A DNA stretch of 64,000 bases from positions 1 through 64,000 of the IMG/VR virus record IMGVR_UViG_3300022868_000015, one strand, 5' to 3'. This DNA comes from a virus. This document shows, piece after piece, positions 1,451-64,000 of the stretch. The notes under the pieces are model-generated. The model ran no database searches. It saw nothing but the letters and a program-made list of their open reading frames with translations, and was not told the DNA's origin. Position 1 is the first letter of the stretch. The number at the start of each line of letters is the position of its first letter. Position numbers and translations under genes: made by a program.

Positions 1451-2341
1451 ATGAACTTAGAAAAAGCATTAAAACTCTATGATAAACTGAAAAAAATTAG
1501 TGATAATTTTATCCTAGCCGGATCAGCTCGCAGAAAGAAACAAGGCGACCTTCATGATTTAGATATAATCTATCATGGAAAAAATATATCTATTATAGAA
1601 GGAGAATCTATTATAGTCAATGGTGATGATATGAAAAGAATTAAGTTAGATGGTGAACAAATTGATATACATACATGTTCTACTGAAAAATTAGGTTCTA
1701 TGTTACTTTATTTCACTGGTTCTAAAACTTATGGTATAAAACTCAGATATAAAGCTAAGAAAATGGGCTATAAACTTAATAGATGGGGTTTATTTGAAGG
1801 TGAAATTTGTTTAGCATCTAAAACAGAGAAAGATATTCTTGATATATTAGGTGAAGAATGGATTACACCAGAAGAAAGAAACTTAGGTGATAACATACTT
1901 CTAGACGAAAACAAAAGCGTTGTTAAAGCATTTAGATATTTAGCTCTTTACTGTACTATGAAAAATGATTATTTCAGATCAAGAGCATATAGTGCAGCGG
2001 CAGACATTTTGGGTGGTTTAGAAAATATTAGAGAATTAGTATCAACAGATGAATTAATGGAAATTGAAGGCATTGGTAAATCTATTAATAAAAAAGTAGA
2101 AGAATTCTTAGATACAGGTTCTATTGTGAAACTTAAAGAATATATGGAAGAAATACCAGAAGAGATTTTATCTTTGACTGAACTTGATGGTGTTGGTCCT
2201 AAAAAAGCATATACTATTTGGAAAGAATTAGGTATAATGTCAAGAGAAAAATTAAAAGAGGCTTGTGAAAAAAGAATGATTTCTCAAATCAAAGGTTTCG
2301 GAGTAAAAACAGAAGATAGTATATTAAATCAATTAAAATGA
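1451..2341 (+). CDS. family X (Pol beta-like) DNA polymerase with permuted domain order
   Basis: 296 residues. The palm comes first: LAGSARRKKQGDLHDLDI (GSxRR at 24-28, Asp36 and Asp38), the third Asp in QIDIH (Asp72), then YFTGSK at 87-92 and the conserved thumb block through KLNRWGLF. The 8-kDa and fingers region follows: FRSRAYSAAADIL, MEIEGIGKSINKK, LTELDGVGPKKA and IKGFGVKTED, that is, helix-hairpin-helix motifs. In cellular PolX the HhH region precedes the palm, so the order here is reversed. No PHP exonuclease domain follows. Expected role is gap-filling repair synthesis. The catalytic residues look intact. Confidence 0.85.
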   Translation: MNLEKALKLYDKLKKISDNFILAGSARRKKQGDLHDLDIIYHGKNISIIEGESIIVNGDDMKRIKLDGEQIDIHTCSTEKLGSMLLYFTGSKTYGIKLRYKAKKMGYKLNRWGLFEGEICLASKTEKDILDILGEEWITPEERNLGDNILLDENKSVVKAFRYLALYCTMKNDYFRSRAYSAAADILGGLENIRELVSTDELMEIEGIGKSINKKVEEFLDTGSIVKLKEYMEEIPEEILSLTELDGVGPKKAYTIWKELGIMSREKLKEACEKRMISQIKGFGVKTEDSILNQLK

Positions 2342-3577: not shown

Positions 3578-4024
3578 ATGAAATATTTAAAAACATATAA
3601 TCGAATGATAAATGAGATTTCAGTTAACGAAAATCAATTAATTAAACAACATTTAAGTAGTGATGGTAAATCATTAAATATAGGTAATTTAAATTTAACT
3701 GAATTACCTGAATTACCTGAAGGTTTAGAAAGATTATATTGTACTAATAACCAATTAACTAAATTACCTAAATTACCAAAAGGATTAGAAAGATTATATT
3801 GTGATAATAACCAATTAACTGAATTACCTGAATTACCTAAAGGATTAAAATATTTATATTGTGGTAATAACAAATTAACTAAATTACCTGAAATACCTAA
3901 AGGATTAAGAGAATTATATTGTCATGATAACCAATTACCTTATGATAATTTAGAAAAATATTGGGAATGGTTTTGGAAAGAAAATCCAGACCTTCACAAT
4001 GCAAAAAAAATGGGATTATATTAA
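3578..4024 (+). CDS. LPX-type leucine-rich repeat protein, 4 repeats
   Basis: 148 residues. Leader MKYLKTYNRMINEISVNE, a capping segment (LIKQHLSSDGKSL), then four 20-residue repeats of the form LTxLPxLPxGLxxLYCxNNQ. The C-terminal cap is NLEKYWEWFWKENPDL and the tail is AKKMGLY. The LPxLP spacing is like that of YopM and IpaH effector LRRs, which bind proteins. No ubiquitin-ligase domain is attached. Cys recurs at a fixed place in each repeat. Confidence 0.88.
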   Translation: MKYLKTYNRMINEISVNENQLIKQHLSSDGKSLNIGNLNLTELPELPEGLERLYCTNNQLTKLPKLPKGLERLYCDNNQLTELPELPKGLKYLYCGNNKLTKLPEIPKGLRELYCHDNQLPYDNLEKYWEWFWKENPDLHNAKKMGLY

Positions 4025-7772: not shown

Positions 7773-8234
7773 ATGATGTATTTAAAAACATATGAAAATT
7801 TTACTCCTACAGATATCCTTATTAGAAAGATAGATGGTAAAGATATAAAAATAAGTTTGCAATTTATAAAAAATGATAAAGAACTTGCTATTAGAATACA
7901 AGATCTATTAGATCAACACGGTAAATTAGATTTAGATGGTGATCTTGAATTATTAATACCAATAACGGGTTCTGAAATTGTTGATAAAGAAACTAATATT
8001 ACTGCACATAGTGATTTAATTGTTAAACCTAATGATAATTGTTTTTTGGAGTTAATTAGATATGAAGATACATATTTTGGTTATACAACAGATTTCTTTT
8101 TTGTTAACGAAAGGGAAAGTTCATGGTGTAGATATAAAGAACTATTAGATCAATATGTAGAAATATGTAGAGAAATAATAATGAATAAAAATGTAAAAAT
8201 TAGAATAGAAGCAAATAAAATGGGATTATATTAA
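7773..8234 (+). CDS. tail-bearing protein with MMYLKTYENF leader
   Basis: 153 residues. Leader MMYLKTYENFTPTD, then a mixed domain with a helix IRIQDLLDQHG and repeated beta strands. It ends EANKMGLY. Overlaps the LRR start by ATG sharing. No known fold is visible. Confidence 0.7.
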   Translation: MMYLKTYENFTPTDILIRKIDGKDIKISLQFIKNDKELAIRIQDLLDQHGKLDLDGDLELLIPITGSEIVDKETNITAHSDLIVKPNDNCFLELIRYEDTYFGYTTDFFFVNERESSWCRYKELLDQYVEICREIIMNKNVKIRIEANKMGLY

Positions 8235-8713
8235 TGAAATATTTAAAGACATATAGTGAAAATCAATTAATTAAACAATATTTAAGTAATGATGGTAAAA
8301 CATTGGATTTAGGTAATTTCAAATTAACAGAATTGCCTGAATTACCTGAAGGATTAAAAGTATTATATTGTTATAATAATCAATTACCTGAATTACCTGA
8401 ATTACCTAAAGGATTAGAATATTTATATTGTTATACTAATAAATTAACTGAGTTACCTGAATTACCTAAAGGGTTAGAAGGATTATATTGTGGTAATAAC
8501 CAATTAACTAAATTACCTGAATTACCTAAAGGATTAAAAAGATTATATTGTTATTATAACCAATTAACTAAATTACCTGAATTACCTAAAAGATTAAAAG
8601 AATTATATTGTTATTATAACCAATTACCTTATGATAATTTAGAAGGTTATTGGAAATGGTTTTGGAAAGAAAACCCAGACCTACATAATGCAAATAAAAT
8701 GGGACTGTATTAA
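8234..8713 (+). CDS. LPX-type LRR protein, 5 repeats
   Basis: 159 residues. Leader MKYLKTYSENQLIKQYL, five 20-residue repeats LTxLPELPKGLxxLYCYxN, cap NLEGYWKWFWKENPDLH, tail NKMGLY. The first repeat lacks the usual T (LPELPELPKG). At the DNA level the repeat unit is 60 bp and nearly identical between copies. Confidence 0.88.
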   Translation: MKYLKTYSENQLIKQYLSNDGKTLDLGNFKLTELPELPEGLKVLYCYNNQLPELPELPKGLEYLYCYTNKLTELPELPKGLEGLYCGNNQLTKLPELPKGLKRLYCYYNQLTKLPELPKRLKELYCYYNQLPYDNLEGYWKWFWKENPDLHNANKMGLY

Positions 8714-9273
8714 TGAAATATTTAAAGACATATAATCGAATGATAAATGAGATTTCAGTTAATGAAAATCTGATTAACCGTTTAAGTGATGATGGTAAAA
8801 ATTTAAATCTAAATAGTTTAAATTTAACCAAATTGCCTGAATTACCTAAAGGGTTAGAAAAATTAATGTGTTATAATAATCAATTAACTGAATTACCTGA
8901 ATTACCAAAAGGATTAGAAATGTTATATTGTGACAACAACAAATTAATTGAATTACCTGAACTACCAAAAGGGTTAGAAATATTAGATTGTGATTATAAC
9001 AAACTAACTGAATTACCTGAATTACCTAAAGGGTTAGAAAGATTATATTGTGGTAATAATAAATTAACAGAATTACCTGAAATACCTAAAGGGTTAGAAA
9101 GATTATATTGTGGTAATAACCAATTAACTGAATTACCTGAATTATCTAAAAGATTAGAATATTTAAATTGTTATAATAACCAATTACCTTATAATAATTT
9201 AGAAGAATATTGGGAATGGTTTTGGAAAGAAAACCCAGACCTACATAATGCAAATAAAATGGGATTGTATTAA
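8713..9273 (+). CDS. LPX-type LRR protein, 6 repeats
   Basis: 186 residues. Leader MKYLKTYNRMINEISVNE, the same as the gene at 3578, six LRR units, the same WEWFWKENPDL cap and tail NKMGLY. It shares its start codon region with the previous LRR stop. Tandem LRR genes with different unit numbers suggest expansion by slippage or recombination. Confidence 0.88.
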   Translation: MKYLKTYNRMINEISVNENLINRLSDDGKNLNLNSLNLTKLPELPKGLEKLMCYNNQLTELPELPKGLEMLYCDNNKLIELPELPKGLEILDCDYNKLTELPELPKGLERLYCGNNKLTELPEIPKGLERLYCGNNQLTELPELSKRLEYLNCYNNQLPYNNLEEYWEWFWKENPDLHNANKMGLY

Positions 9274-16480: not shown

Positions 16481-16780
16481 ATGAAACATTTAAAGACATA
16501 TAATGAAAATCAATTTATTAAAGACCATTTAAGTGGTGATGGTAAATCATTAGATTTAGATAAGTTAAATCTAACTGAATTACCTAAATTACCTGAAGGA
16601 TTAGAAAGATTAGATTGTGATAATAACCTATTAACAGAATTACCTGAATTACCAAAAGGCTTAGAAAGATTATATTGTTATGATAACAAATTACCTTATA
16701 ATGATTTAAAAGGATATTGGAAATGGTTCTGGGAACAAAATCCAGACCTTTATAATGCAAATAAAATGGGATTATATTAA
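16481..16780 (+). CDS. LPX-type LRR protein, 2 repeats
   Basis: 99 residues, the shortest intact LRR gene here. Leader MKHLKTYNENQFIKDHL, only two repeats, cap YWKWFWEQNPDLY, tail NKMGLY. Possibly a contraction product of a longer array. Confidence 0.85.
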   Translation: MKHLKTYNENQFIKDHLSGDGKSLDLDKLNLTELPKLPEGLERLDCDNNLLTELPELPKGLERLYCYDNKLPYNDLKGYWKWFWEQNPDLYNANKMGLY

Positions 16781-17199
16781 TGAAATATTTAAAAACATAT
16801 TCAGAAAATAAATTAATTAAAGACAATTTAAGTAATAATGGTAAAACATTAGATTTAAGTGATTTAAATTTAAAAGAATTACCTGAATTACCTGAAGGAT
16901 TAGAAAGATTAGATTGTGATAATAACAGATTAACTGAATTACCTGAATTACCTGAAGGATTAAGATATTTAGATTGTGATAATAATCAATTAACTGAATT
17001 ACCTGAATTACCAAAAGGATTAGAATCAATATGGTGCTATAATAATAAATTAACTGAATTACCTGAATTACCTAAAGGGTTAAAAATATTAGATTGTGAT
17101 TATAACAAATTACCTTATAATGATTTAGAAGAATATTGGGAATGGTTTTGGAAGGAAAATCCAGATTTAAATCAAGCAAACAAATTAGGATTATATTAA
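16780..17199 (+). CDS. LPX-type LRR protein, 4 repeats
   Basis: 139 residues. Leader MKYLKTYSENKLIKDNL, four repeats (one with ESIWCYNN instead of LYC), cap WEWFWKENPDL, tail NKLGLY. Overlaps the previous LRR stop. Confidence 0.87.
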   Translation: MKYLKTYSENKLIKDNLSNNGKTLDLSDLNLKELPELPEGLERLDCDNNRLTELPELPEGLRYLDCDNNQLTELPELPKGLESIWCYNNKLTELPELPKGLKILDCDYNKLPYNDLEEYWEWFWKENPDLNQANKLGLY

Positions 17200-21158: not shown

Positions 21159-21616
21159 TGAAATATTTAGAAACATATATGCACAAGTTTTATATTGATA
21201 ATTTTAAATTAGAGGATGATAAAGAATTATATCTTGAATTTAATAAATTAATAGAAAAGATTAAAAAAGAATGGCCCTCAGAAAAATTATGGTTAGCACA
21301 TGAACTAGGTTTACACCCTACATCTAAAACTATTGATAAATTATTATATGAAAGATGCGTGGAACTAATTAATAAATATGGTAATTTAAATTATTTTAAT
21401 GGAGTTGCTGAAATGGTTAAAATACCTACTTATATTGACATGTATATATTTAAAAATAGATATGATAATATAGGCATTGGTCATGCTTATGAACCTGGGA
21501 CCGATTGGTATTTTTATGATAAAATGAAAAATACTGAAAAAACAAAAATCAGAAATTTTATAATGAGCGATGAATTAGAACCAATGTTAGAAGCTGAAAA
21601 AATGGGAATATTATGA
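21158..21616 (+). CDS. tail-bearing protein with MKYLETY leader
   Basis: 152 residues. MKYLETYMHKFYIDN, a helical middle, then KIPTYIDMYIF. An internal AHELGLHPT resembles the shared tail, as does the internal ANQLGLFEG at 5476. The block after it aligns loosely with the IPIxxxG family. Ends EAEKMGIL. Overlaps the LRR start. Confidence 0.7.
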   Translation: MKYLETYMHKFYIDNFKLEDDKELYLEFNKLIEKIKKEWPSEKLWLAHELGLHPTSKTIDKLLYERCVELINKYGNLNYFNGVAEMVKIPTYIDMYIFKNRYDNIGIGHAYEPGTDWYFYDKMKNTEKTKIRNFIMSDELEPMLEAEKMGIL

Positions 21617-22332
21617 AATATTTAAAGACATATAATGAAAATCAATTAATTAAAGACCATTTAAAAGATAATGGTAAAACATTAGATTTAATTGATTTAA
21701 ATTTAACTGAATTACCTGAATTACCTGAAGGATTAAAAGAATTATATTGTGATGATAACCAATTAACTAAATTACCTGAATTACCTAAAGGATTAAAATT
21801 TTTAAATTGTGAAAATAACCAATTAACCGAATTACCTGAATTACCTAAAGGGTTAGAAAGATTATATTGTTATAATAATCAATTAACTGAATTACCTGAA
21901 TTACCTAAAAGATTAAAATATTTAAATTGTTATAATAACCTATTAACTGAATTACCTGAATTACCTAAGGGATTAAAAAGATTAGATTGTGAAAATAATC
22001 AATTAACTGAATTGCCTGAATTACCTAAAGGTTTAGAAAAATTATATTGTTATAATAATAAATTAACTAAATTACCTGAATTACCTAAAGATTTAAAAAC
22101 ATTAGATTGTGAACATAACCAATTAACTAAATTACCTGAATTACCTAAAGGATTAGAAAGATTAGATTGTTATAATAATAAATTAACTAAATTACCTGAA
22201 TTACCTAAAGGATTAAAAAGATTATATTGTCATGATAACCAATTACCTTATAACAATTTAAAAGGATATTGGGAATGGTTTTGGAAAGAAAACCCAGACC
22301 TTTATAATGCAAAAAAGATGGGATTATATTAA
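21613..22332 (+). CDS. LPX-type LRR protein, 9 repeats
   Basis: 239 residues, the largest LRR gene in the window. Leader MKYLKTYNENQLIKDHL, nine 20-residue repeats, cap YWEWFWKENPDLY, tail AKKMGLY. The 60-bp units are nearly identical in DNA and keep exact register, so copy number could change by unequal exchange. Confidence 0.9.
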   Translation: MKYLKTYNENQLIKDHLKDNGKTLDLIDLNLTELPELPEGLKELYCDDNQLTKLPELPKGLKFLNCENNQLTELPELPKGLERLYCYNNQLTELPELPKRLKYLNCYNNLLTELPELPKGLKRLDCENNQLTELPELPKGLEKLYCYNNKLTKLPELPKDLKTLDCEHNQLTKLPELPKGLERLDCYNNKLTKLPELPKGLKRLYCHDNQLPYNNLKGYWEWFWKENPDLYNAKKMGLY

Positions 22333-28036: not shown

Positions 28037-28726
28037 TTAATATTTCATTTCTTCTATTGCATATGATGGTATAAAATCATATGTGTAAAATGCATCAACA
28101 CCTGGATATTTTGGATCAGTATATAATCTGAGTTGGTTTAATTTTTTCACATTTATTTTCAATATTAACGGTTTAAACGTATAATCTAAATCAATTTTTT
28201 CTTCAATGAAATTATCAATATATTCTAAAGTATCAAAAAAATAAATCCTTTCTGGTTGATTTTCTAATGTATTTTTAGATTTTATAGTTAATCCACTTTT
28301 CAATATTTTGTCTTTATGTTTTTGATCTGAAACATGATATAATACGGTTTTTATCCCTTTATCTTCAAAATCAAAATTCTTATTGATAATAATAGAAAGT
28401 TTATTATTATTAAAATAATCTTTTATAGTTAGATTTCCTTTAATGAATTTGTTATCATCTCCTTTATATTTTGATATATAATAACCAGATATATTTAATA
28501 ATGAATGTAAATCATCAAAAAATTCTTTTGTTTTAATATTTGTAAAATTTACAATAACACCATTATTGATTGATATATCATATAATATATGATATTTTTT
28601 AAACAAATTTTCAATTTTCTGTTTTAATTTATCATAAGTAAAAGAATATATTAAACCCTCTACTATTAAAGTGTTTGGTATACCTTTTATATGATCATAA
28701 TTACGATACTCATTATAAGTTTTCAT
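28037..28726 (-). CDS. ADP-ribosyltransferase-like protein with leader, copy 1
   Basis: 229 residues. Leader MKTYNEYRNYDHIKGI and a possible I-V-E|G-L site. The C-terminal half has LYHVSDQKHKDKILKSGL, PERIYFF and DAFYTYDFIP, matching the H-x-S / KxGLxxKSK / RIYxF pattern shared with the genes at 28790 and 55141. That layout resembles KptA/ART-fold proteins. T4 Alt is a packaged ADP-ribosyltransferase, so an injected host modifier is a reasonable guess. Confidence 0.6.
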   Translation of the reverse strand: MKTYNEYRNYDHIKGIPNTLIVEGLIYSFTYDKLKQKIENLFKKYHILYDISINNGVIVNFTNIKTKEFFDDLHSLLNISGYYISKYKGDDNKFIKGNLTIKDYFNNNKLSIIINKNFDFEDKGIKTVLYHVSDQKHKDKILKSGLTIKSKNTLENQPERIYFFDTLEYIDNFIEEKIDLDYTFKPLILKINVKKLNQLRLYTDPKYPGVDAFYTYDFIPSYAIEEMKY

Positions 28727-28789: not shown

Positions 28790-29524
28790 TTAATATAATT
28801 CATAATTTCCATTTTCTTCATCAATTATTGTTATTAAATTTTTAGGTATATTATCAACACAGTAAAATCCTTTATCTTCATAATTTGGATCTTCGAAAAT
28901 ATCAATGTTACTATTAGTTAAATCAATTTCGTAAATAATCCATTTATCATTAATTTTGGATTTTGATCTTTTTTTATAATTATATTCTAATTTCATTCTT
29001 GGTATTAATGAATAACAATCATTTACATCTTTACATATATAAATTCTATCTAAATGTTTAGATAATTTTGATTTTGATTTTGGTATAAGTCCTTTATTTA
29101 TTATCTTTTCTTTATATTCTTGAATAGATATGTGATAATATATGTCATTTGCAACTTTTTTATCATATTTAGCTTCATAAGTTATAGAAACTTGTTCTAA
29201 ATATTCAGCATTTTCAATTAAATAATCTTCATTATATGACAATTCATTTTCATTTTCTGATAAATTGACTAAATACATTTTAGATGGGAACCATCCATGT
29301 CTATCTATCATCAGAGAATCTAAATATTCTAAGGTAATTGGTATATTTTTAATAAATCTAAAACCATGTAAGTTAATAGTAATTGTATTATTCTGAGATT
29401 GTATTGAAAAATCATAATTTAATAAATTAAGTTCACTTTTAACATTTTTAATGGTTGAATTTAATTCATGTGTTTTAAGTGTTTCATTTAAAATATATTC
29501 TGAATATGTGTTAATCTTTTTCAT
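28790..29524 (-). CDS. ADP-ribosyltransferase-like protein with leader, copy 2
   Basis: 244 residues. Leader MKKINTYSEYILNETLK (L-N-E|T). The C-terminal part has IYYHISIQEYKEKIINKGL, PKSKSKLSKHLDRIYI and FEDPNYEDKG, aligning with copies 1 and 3. Between leader and ART-like part is a conserved alpha/beta domain (NTITINLHGFRFI), also in the 55141 copy. Follows a small tail gene. Confidence 0.6.
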   Translation of the reverse strand: MKKINTYSEYILNETLKTHELNSTIKNVKSELNLLNYDFSIQSQNNTITINLHGFRFIKNIPITLEYLDSLMIDRHGWFPSKMYLVNLSENENELSYNEDYLIENAEYLEQVSITYEAKYDKKVANDIYYHISIQEYKEKIINKGLIPKSKSKLSKHLDRIYICKDVNDCYSLIPRMKLEYNYKKRSKSKINDKWIIYEIDLTNSNIDIFEDPNYEDKGFYCVDNIPKNLITIIDEENGNYELY

Positions 29525-37750: not shown

Positions 37751-38158
37751 TTAAATGTAATAAATTTGTTCTAAACTAAAAAATTCACCTTTTGGAGCTA
37801 TAATAGGTGGTGGTTTACTCCCTTTAGGTAATTCAGGCAATTCAGTTAATTTGTTATTACCACAATATAATATTTTTAACCCTTTAGGTAATTCAGGTAA
37901 TTCAGTTAATTGGTTATAATCACAATCTAATATTAATAATCCTTTTGGTAATTCAGGTAATTGTGTTAATTGGTTATTAGAACAATATAATGTTTCTAAT
38001 CCTTTAGGTAATTCAGGTAATTCAGGTAATTCAGTTAATTTGTTATTACCACAATACAAATATTTTAATCCTTCAGGTAATTCAGGTAATTCAGTTAATT
38101 TGAAATTACCTAAATCCAATGTTTTACCATCATTACTTAAATGGTTTTTTATATTCAT
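37751..38158 (-). CDS. LRR protein with replaced C terminus
   Basis: 135 residues. No MKYLKTY leader (starts MNIKNHLSNDGKTLDL), about four and a half LPX repeats, one with an extra LPE. It ends SKPPPIIAPKGEF and further residues instead of the usual YWEWFWKENPDL cap and KMGLY tail. Looks truncated at both ends and fused to foreign sequence. May or may not be functional. Confidence 0.7.
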   Translation of the reverse strand: MNIKNHLSNDGKTLDLGNFKLTELPELPEGLKYLYCGNNKLTELPELPELPKGLETLYCSNNQLTQLPELPKGLLILDCDYNQLTELPELPKGLKILYCGNNKLTELPELPKGSKPPPIIAPKGEFFSLEQIYYI

Positions 38159-40873: not shown

Positions 40874-41206
40874 TTATATTAATCCTAATTTATAACCATC
40901 AAAGAAATATTGTAAATCATGTTCTTCAATAAATTCATCAAACCACCTCAATATATGTCCTGGATGATTAATCCGAGTTAAATCTATAGCATTTGTTCTA
41001 CCAGAAGATTCAAAACAAGAAACTGTATGTTTTTCATCAACGAACAAAACAAGTGGAAAGTACTTTCTACTTAACAATGGTTTAACAAATAATGATCGCC
41101 ACAAATGTGTATGTTCATATTTCATATGATCAAACCATTTAAGAATATTTAAAAGTTCTTCATTATTTTCAATGACTACATTTAATATATGTCTTGATTC
41201 TTTCAT
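40874..41206 (-). CDS. small tail-bearing protein
   Basis: 110 residues. HILNVVIENNEELLNILKWF opening in the beta-helix style. SGRTNAIDLTRINHPGHI in the middle. Ends DGYKLGLI. Abuts the Pth2 gene. Confidence 0.68.
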   Translation of the reverse strand: MKESRHILNVVIENNEELLNILKWFDHMKYEHTHLWRSLFVKPLLSRKYFPLVLFVDEKHTVSCFESSGRTNAIDLTRINHPGHILRWFDEFIEEHDLQYFFDGYKLGLI

Positions 41207-41601
41207 TATAATAATTTTAAATGACCTGTTATTTTATCAATCTTATCTGCTCTATAAGGACCAATTGCAATACAAGTTTTAGTAGCAACACCATCAAATT
41301 CAGTTAAACCTGCATCAGTTATCAATACACAAGGCATATTATTTACTTCTGCAAGTCTATATAGTTCTAAGAGTTCTTCTTCACTATCACAAGACACACA
41401 TATCTTAGTAAAATTACCATTTAACCATTTATCCCAATATGAACCTGATTCAAACTTAAAATTATATTCATTTTCAGATTTTTGCATAGCGTTCAAAATT
41501 ACAGCCAGTGAGGCGTGACTACCTTGGGCTATTTCCTTACCCCGCCTCATTTTCAAGTCTTTGCGCATTACTATTACTTGTTTTACTTTATAATCACTCA
41601 T
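41206..41601 (-). CDS. pth2: peptidyl-tRNA hydrolase 2 family
   Basis: 131 residues. KQVIVMRKDLKMRRGKEIAQGSHA at the N terminus, ITDAGLTEFDGVATKTCIA and GPYRADKIDKITGHLKLL at the end are the conserved Pth2 blocks (Lys, His and Asp of the active site all present). Pth2 releases peptides from tRNA and is typical of archaea and eukaryotes and found in some bacteria and phages. Its native HLKLL end happens to resemble the shared tail. Full length. Confidence 0.85.
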   Translation of the reverse strand: MSDYKVKQVIVMRKDLKMRRGKEIAQGSHASLAVILNAMQKSENEYNFKFESGSYWDKWLNGNFTKICVSCDSEEELLELYRLAEVNNMPCVLITDAGLTEFDGVATKTCIAIGPYRADKIDKITGHLKLL

Positions 41602-48683: not shown

Positions 48684-49334
48684 TTAGTTAAATATTTTAT
48701 TAATTAATTTTTTGGCAATATCATCTTTGCCATTACATTTCACATAATTTTTCTCTGTATCAATAATATAAGCAATATGTTCTTTTGCTATTTGCATTTC
48801 TAATTTATCATTAGCAATAACAAAATCACTATTGTTTCTAGTCATTGATTCATAAGCAATGTCAATCAAATTATTCAAAGATTGACCAACTTCAAACTTA
48901 AAACTAACAAGTTTAATTTCTGGATTCCACTTCTTAATATAAGAAATAACTTTGGGATTCTTTTTAATTCTTGATCTTAAAGAATCAATAAAGGCTTGTG
49001 GACTATCGCTTTTTAATTTTTCATTTAAAGATTCAAAACCAAAATCACTAATAGCCATTGAATGAATCACCACATCCATTTTTGGTATTAATTTTTCCAT
49101 TTCTTCCATAACTTCTTCAACAGAGTCAGCATATATTATATTGCCTTTGTAGAATATTTCAGGAATTACTGAATATTTAGAGCATAAATAATAACAATCT
49201 TGAATTTTGACTGATTTACTCATGAGCAAATTGTCAGCAATCTTTGCTCCTAATTTACCTGTACTAATATTAGTTAATACTCTTACATCATCTAAATATT
49301 CTCTAGTTCCACCCGCTGTAATTAAAATCTTCAT
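48684..49334 (-). CDS. stand-alone phosphopantothenate-cysteine ligase-like CoaB
   Basis: 216 residues. LITAGGTREYLDDVRVLTNI then STGKLG (nucleotide site), VIHSMAISDFG, KSDSPQAF, LVSFKFEV and SDFVIAND are the CoaB blocks. Most bacteria fuse CoaB to CoaC as Dfp; monofunctional CoaB is known from streptococci and relatives. The companion decarboxylase is at 50024. Together they would convert 4'-phosphopantothenate and cysteine to 4'-phosphopantetheine, the CoA precursor. Confidence 0.82.
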   Translation of the reverse strand: MKILITAGGTREYLDDVRVLTNISTGKLGAKIADNLLMSKSVKIQDCYYLCSKYSVIPEIFYKGNIIYADSVEEVMEEMEKLIPKMDVVIHSMAISDFGFESLNEKLKSDSPQAFIDSLRSRIKKNPKVISYIKKWNPEIKLVSFKFEVGQSLNNLIDIAYESMTRNNSDFVIANDKLEMQIAKEHIAYIIDTEKNYVKCNGKDDIAKKLINKIFN

Positions 49335-49937: not shown

Positions 49938-50040
49938 AAATTATCAGTATTGATTTGTAAGAACTAGAATAACTACCACCAGTAGAATTTGATATTATTT
50001 TAATATTTATTAATTCAATATCCTCATTTTCCTTTAACCA
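49924..50040 (-). pseudogene. N-terminally truncated copy of the MSLNxxEET family
   Basis: Reads WLKENEDIELINIKIIS, then SYKSILIIYEP and a stop, matching the C-terminal half of copies 1-3. Its start is missing, replaced by the coaC gene whose last codons (LMVKGK) overlap it. The coaC gene probably arrived by recombination into a fourth copy. Confidence 0.55.
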
Positions 50041-50494
50041 TTAAACCTTTAACAGGTGATATAATATGTGTATTATCCATAGATGCGACCAATCCTTCAT
50101 TGAATTGATATTGAACACTTTCATACATTTTAGTATTCATTGCAGGACATATAATTCTAGGAGTTTCTTTTGGAAGAGCGATAAATGTACTAGTCACGAA
50201 ATCATCAGCGATTCCATGTGCAAATTTAGCCATAATATTAGCAGTTGCTGGTACACAGATAAAAGCATCACAATTTTGTGCTTCCACAATATGTGATACT
50301 ATATTTGGATCATCATTCGTAATATAATTACCTGATATAGTTCCTATAACTGTGGGAGTTATAAAATTTAGAGCATTTTTAGTTGTCATAACTCTAACAA
50401 TATAACCAGAGGCTTTTAAACCTGAAATAACATCAGCAACTTTATAGGCTGATATACCACCACTAATGGCTATTAATATTGTTTTTGTGTTCAT
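50024..50494 (-). CDS. phosphopantothenoylcysteine decarboxylase-like flavoprotein CoaC
   Basis: 156 residues. ILIAISGGISAYKVADVI (FMN-binding start), VSHIVEAQ (active-site His), VPATANIMAKFAHGIADD (the PASANT-type loop, here PATAN) and CPAMNTKMYE (PxMNxxMW-type clamp) fit CoaC/HFCD flavoproteins. It is shorter at the C terminus than usual, ending KGLMVKGK. Related peptide-cysteine decarboxylases such as EpiD are an alternative, but the nearby CoaB favours CoaC. Confidence 0.82.
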   Translation of the reverse strand: MNTKTILIAISGGISAYKVADVISGLKASGYIVRVMTTKNALNFITPTVIGTISGNYITNDDPNIVSHIVEAQNCDAFICVPATANIMAKFAHGIADDFVTSTFIALPKETPRIICPAMNTKMYESVQYQFNEGLVASMDNTHIISPVKGLMVKGK

Positions 50495-55140: not shown

Positions 55141-55821
55141 TTATAAGTTTTCTTTTAAAATTTCAATTTTATCTGGGCTTATATTATCATAAGTAAAATA
55201 ACCTAATCTATAATTTGGATCAGTATGTAATATTAACCTATCTTTATTGCAATCAATTTTTAATAAAAGGTAATTTTTATCATTTAAATCAGTATTTTTA
55301 AGTTTTTTCAAAAGATTTTGATATTCATCAACTTCATCAAATAAATATAATCTTTCTGGATGTGCGGATAATCTCTTTTTAGATTTTGGATACAAACCTT
55401 TAGATAAAATACTCTTTTTATTTTTTTGTGGTGACAAGTGATATAATATATCTGGACAAATTATTGTATTTTTATATAACCCATCATCATATTTAGATTC
55501 ATATTTAATTATAACCTCTTTAGTATTTGATGGTAATTTATCAATTTCCTTAAAACTATTCTTTTTATTATCTTTAAGTATAACCCAATAATATGAAGGA
55601 AAATATCCAAGAACATAACATTGATGATTTGCTAATTCAACAATCTCAAAATCGTTAATATGTAAAGTTAAATTAAAATCTAATTTATCTATTATTTCTA
55701 ATTCATATTTAACACCTATTTGATCTAAATAAGTAGTTAAAGTTGACTTATATATGTTTATATTATGAGTTGTTATTAACCCTTCTTTTATTTTTTCTAT
55801 AAAATTCTCATACGTTTTCAT
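55141..55821 (-). CDS. ADP-ribosyltransferase-like protein with leader, copy 3
   Basis: 226 residues. Leader MKTYENFIEKIKEGLITTH with an I-K-E|G site that fits the T4 prohead protease rule. C-terminal LYHLSPQKNKKSILSKGL, PKSKKRLSAHPERLYLF and HTDPNYRLGYFTYDN, the best-preserved copy of the motif shared with 28037 and 28790. Preceded by an LT-type companion gene. Confidence 0.62.
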   Translation of the reverse strand: MKTYENFIEKIKEGLITTHNINIYKSTLTTYLDQIGVKYELEIIDKLDFNLTLHINDFEIVELANHQCYVLGYFPSYYWVILKDNKKNSFKEIDKLPSNTKEVIIKYESKYDDGLYKNTIICPDILYHLSPQKNKKSILSKGLYPKSKKRLSAHPERLYLFDEVDEYQNLLKKLKNTDLNDKNYLLLKIDCNKDRLILHTDPNYRLGYFTYDNISPDKIEILKENL

Positions 55822-60203: not shown

Positions 60204-63200
60204 CTAATTTTTAATTATTTTTTTTGTAAATATGTTATCTCCTGAAGTTAATACAATCATATACATTGCAGGAGGCAATTTTGATAAATCTATTGATGAT
60301 ATTTCTGCATTTTGATACTCATATTCCATTATTATTTGTCCATAATGATTGAATAGTTCTACATTTATTTTGTCTGTTTTATCAAAGTTTTCAAGATATA
60401 TATAAATAATATCTCTAAATGGGTTAGGATAAATCACAACAGATTGATTTGCCGTTGTTTGATTACAAGAAGCCTGAATAAAATTGTAAGTTTTCGAAGT
60501 TCCGTCATAATCAACTTGAGTGAGTCTGTAATAGTTAATCCCGTCTGAGAAATTTGGATCTTTGAAGATGTAGTTTAATAAATTATTAGAATTTCCATTA
60601 CCATCAATTTTTCCAATCTGATCAAAATCCTTTGCGTTTGACGATCTTTCGATAGTGAAATAATCGTTATTTATTTCGCTAGCAGTTGTCCACTGAATAT
60701 CTATGTTTCCATTATTGCAATCGGCTTCAAATTTCACAAGATTAACAGGCAAAGGATTTTCGTTACTCTTTGATCCGAAAGTAATTATTTTATTTGACTT
60801 TGCTCCAAAAGTAACAGGAAAACGAGATCTTATAAAGCCTGCATCGTGTGTAAAGCTTGTCAATAGAGGATCACTGTTGAAATCAATATTTGCCCACATA
60901 GAACCATTCCAATAGGCTACAAGTAAATCACTGGCAACAAAATCACCTGAAATCCCATCGTCAAAACCATGAACACAGATGGCGTCGTCAACATGAGTAT
61001 TGTCGAACCAATATAGAGTTACAGGCATATCTTGGTCAGAATTAACTACCCAATTTTCTCTATTGCTGACATGATGCAAATTAAGGTCCATATTTCCGCC
61101 ATGTTCCCACCAATCTGGCATGTAGGTATTTGAGAAATTATACTGAGCAGTAACAGTAACAGTTGATGCTCCTGTTGGATGTATTCCTAATGCTCCTGCA
61201 ATGGCATATTCTACAGATCCGTTGCCATCAAAATCTTGGATGCTAACATCACCTGTTGGGAAAATAAATTCATTTATCCCAGTTTTAGTAATCATTCCAT
61301 CAACAAAACTATTGTTTGAAGAAACATTTGCTGTTGCTGAATTTATAAATGTAAGTGAACCTCCACCAGAATAATAAACAATACCATGGGTAAATGTTGC
61401 AGTTCCTTCTATTGTCATAGGTGAAGTTATTTCAATATCAGCATGATTACCAAACGAGTTATCAAATAATATATTATTAAAATTACCTACACCTGCATTA
61501 ATAGTCTGTAATCCACTACCGTTAAATGCAACTGTTCCATTTCCGGCATTAAATGTTCCAGAGTTATTCCAATCACCTGTTACTTCTAATGATGACAATC
61601 CGCCCAAAGTCAATCCTGTGCCGATATTCATATCTTCGCAATAAACTGTGGAACTTGCTGTAGTTACAGCATTTGTAGTTGCACAAGTTCCAGCGTCGTA
61701 AGATTGAATAAATACATTGCTGGTTGCAGAAGGTAATAGAGTTGCAACAGAGTATAGTGTGCCGTTATAATATAACCAGTTTGTAACATCGTCCCAACTA
61801 TTACCGTTTGCTCCAGTCCAAAAGTAGTCGCCAGTGCCAATACCACCAGGTGTAGGTGCTGTTGTAACTGTTACTACCCAGCTTCCACCTGCCACTTCGA
61901 AACCTGTGTTACAAGTTCCATCATGTGCCCAACGTCTATAAGTTGTAGTTACTGTTAATCCTCCAGGAGGGTTGTAACTTGCAGAAGTCGCACCAGAAAT
62001 ATCTACTCCGTTAGCTTGCCATTTATATGTGATAGTATTATCACCACCGCTTGCTACAGCAGTAGAGCTAATATTTGCAGGATCTGTTCCCTGACAGATT
62101 GTTTCGCCTGTAGATAGAATTGTTCCAGCTGTGAAATCTGGTCGAACTGTAACAGTCCATGTTCCTGTTGCAGTTTCACCAGAACAGTTGTTGTTACTGT
62201 TAACCGTCATGGTGAGGGTAACTGTGTTTCCGGCATCACCTGCTGCTGGAGTGTAAGTTGGTGTTAATGTTGTTGCTCCGGATGTGATTGAACCTGCACC
62301 GTCTTCTGTCCAAGCAATCGTACCGTTAGAAGCACTTGCTCCACTGACTGTCGCAGTTTCATTAACACAAATGTCCTGCGATCCGCCAGCCGAAGCTGTT
62401 GGTAATGGATCAACATTCACGGTGTATGTTGCTGTTGCTATTTGAGGTGTACAAGCATTATCACTTGTTACAGTCATTGTAAGAGTAATTGTTCCACTGG
62501 CATCACCAGCAGCTGGAGTGTAAGTTGGTGTTAATGTTGTTGCTCCCGATGTGATAGAACCTGCACCGTTTTCTGTCCAAGCAATCGTACCGTTAGAAGC
62601 ACTTGCTCCACTGACTGTCGCAGTTTCATTAACACAAATGTCCTGCGATCCGCCAGCCGAAGCTGTTGGTAATGGATCGACATTCACGGCTACATTATCA
62701 CTTACTCCGCAACCACTGGCTGTGGCTGTCATGGTGTAAGTTGTTGTTGATGATGGAGTTGCTACTGGATTTAAAATATTTGGATTACTTAAACCAGTAG
62801 TAGGAGACCAAGAGCAGGTTGGTTGTGCTTGTACGTTATAATGAACGATTCCATTAAACGCTCTAGGTGAACATACACTTGAAAATTGACCACATAATCC
62901 AATACCAGCTGTTAATGTTAAATAAGAATCTGAATATGTTGTGTTTGCTGTAAGGGTAGTATATTTAGCATTGAAGTTAACATATATACCATAAGTCTGA
63001 TTTGCCGGTATTATAAGATTGGCAATATCAAGATAATATTGAGTGCTTGTAACACCATTAATAGAATATGTCCCTAAAAGAATCCAAGAACCACTTGTTG
63101 TTTCACTACCTACATAGCTTCCCGATTTATAATATACATTAACGGTTTGGGTAGCAGTACTACCAGGTAAAATTGTAAATGCATCAATTTCAATAGGATT

Positions 63201-64000
63201 TGCACCAGTTGTTAAATCAAACATATTTCCTCCACCACATCCATTACCTGCTGCAAAAGTAGTTGTTAAACTACAACTAACAGTACTAAGATTAGCACTT
63301 CCACTCAATTGCGAACTCGACCCATTACAAATTGTCACATCACTTCCGGCCGAAACTCCTGTTGGTAAAGGATTTACTGTAACTGCCACACTTGCAGCAG
63401 CACTCCATGCTCCATCGCCGGTTCGGTACGATCTAATGTAATACGTTCCTGATGTTGTTACATTATATGTTGAGCCACTGCTTGTCGTAGATGTTCCACT
63501 GGCAGAGGTTTGCCAATACCATGTTTCTCCAGAAGGAGGTGTGCCGTTTGCGGTGATTGTTACACTGCCGCAACCTGGAGAGTTTGAAGTTGGTGTGTTT
63601 GGGGTAATAGGTAGAATAACGGCAACGGCAACAATACAAGTATAATCTTCCGTTTCACCATAAGTAAGTGCAGCACATGGATCGGTAGGCGTAGTAGTTC
63701 CATAATAATCTGAACGTATACGCATTTTGTGTGAACCCAGTGTAGCACCAACCGGAATTGTAAAACTTGTGTTTACGGCCGTAGTATTAGAAGGATTAAC
63801 ATAAGTAAGAACCTTCTCACCTGCGGAAAATGTCAGATCATCATTAAAATCAATCCACACAACATGATCCATACCATAACTCTGAGTGGTGAGACTCAAA
63901 TTAACAACACCTCCTTGTACCTGCGATACAGAATAGGTGCCACTATAATCGGTATAAGAGGTTGATGAACAACCTGAGGTACTATTAAAGTTGGTCAGCC
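60204..64000 (-). CDS. GEVED/Ig-like/T9SS surface protein, 5' end beyond the window
   Basis: The frame is open to the right edge, so more than 1260 residues and no start seen. In order: GEVED-type domain (VVWIDFNDDLTFSAGEKVL to GETEDYTCIV), Ig/PKD-like repeats including two nearly identical 89-residue units, a beta-helix or hemagglutinin-like stretch (DYFWTGANGNSWDDVTNW), a fibronectin-like segment, and a C-terminal T9SS sorting domain (VIYPNPFRDIIYIYL to MYMIVLTSGDNIFTKKIIKN). Exported and cell-surface anchored in Bacteroidota. Codon use is visibly richer in G and C. Confidence 0.88.
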   Translation of the reverse strand, partial: LTNFNSTSGCSSTSYTDYSGTYSVSQVQGGVVNLSLTTQSYGMDHVVWIDFNDDLTFSAGEKVLTYVNPSNTTAVNTSFTIPVGATLGSHKMRIRSDYYGTTTPTDPCAALTYGETEDYTCIVAVAVILPITPNTPTSNSPGCGSVTITANGTPPSGETWYWQTSASGTSTTSSGSTYNVTTSGTYYIRSYRTGDGAWSAAASVAVTVNPLPTGVSAGSDVTICNGSSSQLSGSANLSTVSCSLTTTFAAGNGCGGGNMFDLTTGANPIEIDAFTILPGSTATQTVNVYYKSGSYVGSETTSGSWILLGTYSINGVTSTQYYLDIANLIIPANQTYGIYVNFNAKYTTLTANTTYSDSYLTLTAGIGLCGQFSSVCSPRAFNGIVHYNVQAQPTCSWSPTTGLSNPNILNPVATPSSTTTYTMTATASGCGVSDNVAVNVDPLPTASAGGSQDICVNETATVSGASASNGTIAWTENGAGSITSGATTLTPTYTPAAGDASGTITLTMTVTSDNACTPQIATATYTVNVDPLPTASAGGSQDICVNETATVSGASASNGTIAWTEDGAGSITSGATTLTPTYTPAAGDAGNTVTLTMTVNSNNNCSGETATGTWTVTVRPDFTAGTILSTGETICQGTDPANISSTAVASGGDNTITYKWQANGVDISGATSASYNPPGGLTVTTTYRRWAHDGTCNTGFEVAGGSWVVTVTTAPTPGGIGTGDYFWTGANGNSWDDVTNWLYYNGTLYSVATLLPSATSNVFIQSYDAGTCATTNAVTTASSTVYCEDMNIGTGLTLGGLSSLEVTGDWNNSGTFNAGNGTVAFNGSGLQTINAGVGNFNNILFDNSFGNHADIEITSPMTIEGTATFTHGIVYYSGGGSLTFINSATANVSSNNSFVDGMITKTGINEFIFPTGDVSIQDFDGNGSVEYAIAGALGIHPTGASTVTVTAQYNFSNTYMPDWWEHGGNMDLNLHHVSNRENWVVNSDQDMPVTLYWFDNTHVDDAICVHGFDDGISGDFVASDLLVAYWNGSMWANIDFNSDPLLTSFTHDAGFIRSRFPVTFGAKSNKIITFGSKSNENPLPVNLVKFEADCNNGNIDIQWTTASEINNDYFTIERSSNAKDFDQIGKIDGNGNSNNLLNYIFKDPNFSDGINYYRLTQVDYDGTSKTYNFIQASCNQTTANQSVVIYPNPFRDIIYIYLENFDKTDKINVELFNHYGQIIMEYEYQNAEISSIDLSKLPPAMYMIVLTSGDNIFTKKIIKN
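62165..62698 (-). repeat. two 267-bp (89-residue) Ig-like repeats
   Basis: The block CAAGCAATCGTACCGTTAGA and its surroundings recurs at a spacing of 267 bp (62311 and 62578), encoding PLPTASAGGSQDICVNETAT units. Nearly identical DNA implies recent duplication or gene conversion. Confidence 0.85.

Follow-up and report, generated by a model that had tools for sequence, protein, structure and literature searches.

The gene at positions 1451 to 2341 of the window, by which we mean the whole 64,000-nucleotide stretch analysed here (IMG/VR virus record IMGVR_UViG_3300022868_000015), raises the question of whether a family X DNA polymerase (PolX) can keep a complete core while carrying the two halves of that core in exchanged order. 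PolX enzymes are usually described as having a conserved linear layout, in which the 8-kDa domain sets the enzyme on the gap and leads into the palm, and in canonical members the second HhH runs straight into the palm helix. A first-pass annotation of this locus had proposed a circularly permuted arrangement and stated that the HhH region is N-terminal in known PolX. The latter statement agrees with the literature, since characterised enzymes have their 8-kDa domain at the N-terminus (PMC5537341, PMC9226535), this position is general with the sole exception of African swine fever virus (ASFV) PolX, which is without this domain (PMC5537341), and a large survey of prokaryotic PolX found the domain order conserved, beginning with the 8-kDa domain (PMC9226535).

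The gene is a single intact ORF of 296 codons with an ATG start and no internal stops, closely flanked by co-directional ORFs whose inspection gave no hint of function. Its stop-to-stop frame opens just 2 codons before the ATG, which rules out an overlooked N-terminal HhH upstream. Pfam placed DNA_pol_B_thumb (PF14791) at residues 85-144 (8e-20), HHH_8 at 153-224 (1.7e-13) and HHH_5 at 241-296 (3e-13) of the 296-aa protein, each above its curated cut-off, and no match to a PHP domain was found there. As authors differ and the names fingers and thumb are reversed between them, thumb is used here in the Pfam sense, that is, for the nascent-base-pair-binding subdomain. The features of the gene are as follows:

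1451..2341, + strand: permuted family X DNA polymerase, 296 aa (ORF list, Pfam, phmmer, AlphaFold2)
1451..1882, + strand: palm and nascent-base-pair-binding subdomain (Pfam DNA_pol_B_thumb), residues 1-144, holding GSARR, DLD, QID, YFTGSK and LNRWGLF (Pfam, phmmer, Foldseek)
1556..1564, + strand: D36-L37-D38, catalytic Asp 1 and 2 (alignment, phmmer)
1664..1666, + strand: D72, catalytic Asp 3 (alignment, phmmer)
1883..1906, + strand: linker from the polymerase half to the 8-kDa half, residues 145-152, pLDDT ~68 (AlphaFold2)
1907..2122, + strand: 8-kDa domain with the first HhH (Pfam HHH_8), residues 153-224 (Pfam, fragment fold, phmmer)
2093..2095, + strand: K215, counterpart of the Pol beta lyase nucleophile K72 (alignment; role of K72, PMC5537341)
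2171..2338, + strand: second HhH or D-subdomain (Pfam HHH_5), residues 241-296 (Pfam, phmmer)

The motifs named in the first-pass annotation were all recovered in the expected halves, with GSARR (24-28), DLD (36-38), QID (70-72), YFTGSK (87-92) and LNRWGLF (109-115) on the palm side and FRSRAYSAA (175-183), GIGKS (207-211), DGVGPKKA (246-253) and GFGVKTED (282-289) on the HhH side. The top PDB match of the whole protein by phmmer was Thermus PolX (3AU2, E 1.5e-34), and it consisted of two stretches in swapped order: residues 154-291 corresponded to 3-144 of the chain and residues 22-143 to 185-314. When queried alone against the PDB, the HhH half (2.5e-19) and the palm half (2.3e-13) again retrieved the 3AU2 chain, and, as sequence matches, these separate hits of both halves to one chain are far beyond chance. 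Along the polypeptide, the first palm helix, the palm and the nascent-base-pair-binding subdomain up to residue 144 are followed by an 8-residue linker, the 8-kDa domain and the second HhH, which ends at the last residue, 296, at the point where the palm helix starts in canonical PolX. The Pfam order and the swapped phmmer stretches thus bear out the proposal that palm and thumb come first and the 8-kDa/HhH region last. As judged from the sequence, the PolX core is whole, its halves are exchanged and the PHP domain is absent, the core being cut at one boundary and rejoined at the other.

The AlphaFold2 model of the whole protein (24 sequences) reached a mean pLDDT of 93.6 and a pTM of 0.78, its least confident part being the linker; because of this pTM and the low-confidence linker, the mutual placement of the two halves is tentative. 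A Foldseek search of the whole model against the PDB aligned a single half, best with Thermus PolX (2.2 Å, ~160 columns), which is expected of a permuted chain since Foldseek is sequential. The N-terminal half matched Thermus PolX at 2.2 Å and ASFV PolX at 3-4 Å, and in BFVD all Foldseek matches at E<=0.001 covered <=178 columns, with no viral structure of the same order found there. The comparison with Thermus PolX or Pol beta suggested in the first-pass annotation was informative for the C-terminal 146 residues, which, folded alone (pLDDT 96.7), matched 3AU2 over all 146 residues/columns with a TM of 0.85, an rmsd of 2.2 Å and 36% identity (Foldseek), the next structural matches being Deinococcus PolX and Pol beta. 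An unrelated extra HhH domain at the C-terminus was ruled out, as the lone fragment matches the N-terminal region of 3AU2 along its full length. According to the model, the C-terminal part is the displaced 8-kDa/HhH region.

To evaluate residue conservation, 73 palm halves and 77 HhH halves were aligned. S25, R28, D36, D38, D72, G90, S91 and R99 in the palm half, as well as Y180, K215, T222 and G223 in the HhH half, are found in both permuted proteins known to us (see below) and agree with the family. R28 is invariant among the 73 palm halves, and the three catalytic Asp residues, whose presence had been noted before, are conserved in 67 (D36), 69 (D38) and 61 (D72) of them; K215 is kept in 45/77 HhH halves. 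On the standard motif alignment, S25, R28, D36, D38 and D72 are the counterparts of Pol beta S180, R183, D190, D192 and D256, and K215 occupies the position of the lyase residue K72. In Pol beta, K72 is the lyase nucleophile (PMC5537341). The position of Pol beta K35 holds an Arg, such that the K72 equivalent is the only clearly kept lyase Lys. Judging by these residues, the permuted PolX most likely works as an active polymerase that fills short gaps, and it is possibly a dRP lyase acting through K215.

A homologue with the same order of halves, as called for by the first-pass annotation, was found in LR756500.1, an uncultured and distantly related huge phage of 462 kb. It encodes a PolX of 312 aa in an intact ORF, with the same permuted order and 38.8% identity over the full length, and this gene is also present in IMGVR_3300025030_000039 (429 kb). 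The window itself is 100% identical to a 348-kb record from position 260,207 onward, and the two are probably one assembly. Between the 348-kb record and LR756500.1, both with a GC content near 25%, 99/444 ORFs are in common at E<=1e-5, including ribonucleotide reductase, a DnaB-like helicase, a UvsW-like helicase and NAD-synthesis genes. Because of these common ORFs, the permuted gene was probably inherited from a common ancestor of both phages, and the conservation of its order in phages related to this extent suggests selection for function. In LR756500.1, a second, palm-only PolX lies near 427.5 kb, 16 kb from the permuted one, and its second catalytic position reads DLN, not DLD; given the presence of this palm-only enzyme, the permuted PolX may have another or an accessory role. 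LR756500.1 also encodes an NAD-dependent ligase. The DNA ligase families PF01068 and PF01653 had no match in the 348-kb record, a point against the mechanism proposed below; this record encodes an AP_endonuc_2 barrel.

Several other features of these genomes were recorded. A C-terminal tag, [YL][IL]E[ASG]NK[ML]GL[LIY], is carried by 89/444 predicted ORFs of the 348-kb record (in the window, for example, those ending at 523, 863, 1163, 1444, 3577, 4024, 4629 and 5955) and by 1/524 ORFs of LR756500.1, the PolX (1451..2341) being without it. The tag 5-mer occurs inside proteins at 17 per 92,145 positions, with 0.08 expected in 444 C-termini. Since the tagged proteins minus their last 15 residues still form 59 blastp clusters, the tag is carried by apparently unrelated small proteins, and it is possibly a targeting or processing signal. 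ORFs with leucine-rich repeats (LPELPKGLERLYCNNNQLT) are dispersed over the window (3578-4024, 8234-9273, 16780-17199, 21613-22332 and 37751-38158); many begin with MKYLKTY and end with KMGLY, and copies lie on both strands with DNA ~82-98% alike. CoaBC is encoded as two separate genes for the DFP and flavoprotein domains (48684-49334 and 50024-50494, - strand), NAD synthase and NAPRTase genes lie elsewhere in the phage of the window, and a PTH2-type peptidyl-tRNA hydrolase is encoded at 41206-41601 (- strand, E 9e-36). The gyrase B and gyrase A regions are fused in one 1087-aa ORF (348-kb record, 180646-183906); in LR756500.1 it is matched best by a 596-aa ORF. Paralogous ORFs with the motif YH[LIV]S...KI..KGL.PKSK (28037-28726, 28790-29524 and 55141-55821, - strand) may recall ADP-ribosyltransferase-like folds. 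The end of a large repeat protein (60204-63998, - strand) presumably resembles a Bacteroidota type IX secretion sorting domain, a hint of a Bacteroidota host.

How widespread the exchanged order is was evaluated in several collections. A classified panel comprised 72 canonical, 10 palm-only, 6 HhH-only and 2 permuted proteins. In a survey of 396 Bacteroidota and 399 Bacillota genomes (795), 389 had matches at E<=1e-15, and among the matches listed each lay on one half and none spanned both in permuted order. The PolX of the plasmid matches and cultured phages examined were canonical, none being permuted. IMG/VR scans with a pattern that catches motif-keeping proteins only found the permuted order in two lineages only, and a scan of genome contigs returned four PolX, all canonical. 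The survey covered Bacteroidota and Bacillota genomes, plasmids, cultured phages, IMG/VR records and genome contigs. A full-text search of open-access papers found no permuted PolX. Taken together, these proteins are real, complete and probably active family X polymerases with exchanged halves, present in two related huge-phage lineages.

Compared with known enzymes, the phage protein has all parts of the family X core, namely a palm with GSxRR and three Asp, the nascent-base-pair-binding subdomain and the 8-kDa domain with two HhH, and has neither the 8-kDa domain before the palm nor the C-terminal PHP domain of prokaryotic PolX1. Both halves are homologous to those of the PolX1 enzyme of Thermus thermophilus (3AU2/3AUO; ~36% identity in the HhH and ~30% in the palm half) with the same catalytic residues, whereas that enzyme has its 8-kDa/HhH region N-terminally and a PHP domain at the C-terminus. 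ASFV PolX is likewise a small viral enzyme, whose palm and thumb align to phage residues 14-143, but it is without any 8-kDa/HhH region. The canonical PolX of Escherichia phage IME392, Vibrio phage 2.275.O, Yersinia phage GN1 and Rhizobium phage RHph_TM2_3B are also PHP-less (250-320 aa), yet their polymerase half is C-terminal and the 8-kDa/HhH half, where recognised, comes first. Phaeocystis globosa virus PolX shares the 8-kDa lyase domain with a K72-type lysine and differs by its canonical order and a fused DNA ligase (PMC5537341).

Three readings would deprive the exchanged order of its novelty, its reality or its catalytic meaning. The protein could belong to the PolX2 group (Timinskas et al. 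2026, PMC12926913), the one candidate precedent and the chief doubt as to novelty, so that the same order may already exist, unrecognised, in cells. In the available part of its description, PolX2 resembles the phage protein in outline, with the N-terminal 8-kDa and PHP domains absent and a helical C-terminal domain, and has been reported in viruses; in that same part, the C-terminal helices are not described as HhH/8-kDa or as permuted. With no permuted protein among the matches listed from the 795 genomes, nor in the plasmids and cultured phages, we consider this reading unlikely. Matches in Streptomyces and Nonomuraea were ruled out as PolX2 precedents, being canonical PolX1. A misjoining of parts of a canonical gene by misassembly or frameshift might be suspected, as the window does not differ from the 348-kb record and both probably come from a single assembly. 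The ORF is, however, close-set between co-directional neighbours without an internal stop, and the intact, equally ordered gene of the independent huge phage LR756500.1 rules out such an artefact, leaving it a negligible probability. It is also rather improbable that the protein is a degenerate, non-polymerising DNA-end-binding derivative of PolX: noncanonical prokaryotic PolX without polymerase activity do exist (PMC9226535), but these have altered Asp triads and often shortened palms, whereas both phages retain an intact triad and intact dNTP-site residues.

The route by which the order arose is less settled. As a description of domain order, the term circularly permuted stands; as for the evolutionary route, a palm-only phage PolX to which an HhH module was fused is also possible. 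Such a fusion, in which an ASFV-like palm-only enzyme gained a C-terminal 8-kDa/HhH module from another PolX gene, has in our estimate somewhat less than an even chance. Palm-only PolX are common in viruses (7 loci), and LR756500.1 has one alongside its permuted enzyme. The two permuted proteins form a clade in the palm tree (SH-aLRT 99), placed among viral PolX, and a constraint grouping them with cellular PolX was rejected (p 0.007), in contrast to one grouping them with palm-only viral PolX (p 0.65). The HhH tree, however, gives no cellular-over-viral placement of the HhH half (a grouping of viral with permuted sequences was not rejected, p 0.84), and the junctions yield a full core with nothing lost or doubled, as expected from permutation by duplication and deletion. 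True permutation and fusion are thus both possible origins. That the Pol beta core was here circularly permuted in nature, with function kept, in a lineage of AT-rich huge phages, the lyase/HhH half being tethered to the nascent-base-pair-binding subdomain in place of the palm and the canonical DNA-encircling ring restored, and the first family X enzyme of this kind, we regard as an evenly balanced proposition.

With good confidence, we propose a PHP-less phage PolX whose complete Pol beta-like core, cut and rejoined, refolds to a ring and fills gaps in phage genome repair. The break in the core would lie where the second HhH meets the palm, and the short linker would lead from the end of the polymerase half into the first residues of the 8-kDa domain. 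When PolX has closed on DNA, as seen in Pol beta structures, the 8-kDa domain adjoins the nascent-base-pair-binding subdomain; the old termini are for this reason close, and the halves could refold to the ring. Both halves would reassemble the customary PolX ring that encloses gapped DNA, the HhH half returning to its usual place by docking via the 8-residue linker. Canonical PolX have the HhH half fixed to the palm; since it is here tethered to the far end of the polymerase half, it would have to touch the palm non-covalently. The 8-kDa half would recognise the 5'-phosphate side of the gap, short gaps with a 5'-phosphate would be filled through two-metal catalysis, with D36/D38/D72 as the catalytic residues, and the removal of 5'-dRP groups may fall to K215. 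The enzyme probably acts in repairing the phage genome, by base excision or at breaks, alongside a ligase of host or phage origin.

Overall, this locus illustrates that machine annotation by domain matches can mask an altered domain order. A permuted PolX would provide a ready scaffold for engineering and a direct test of whether gap recognition, processivity and fidelity depend on HhH and palm being covalently linked.
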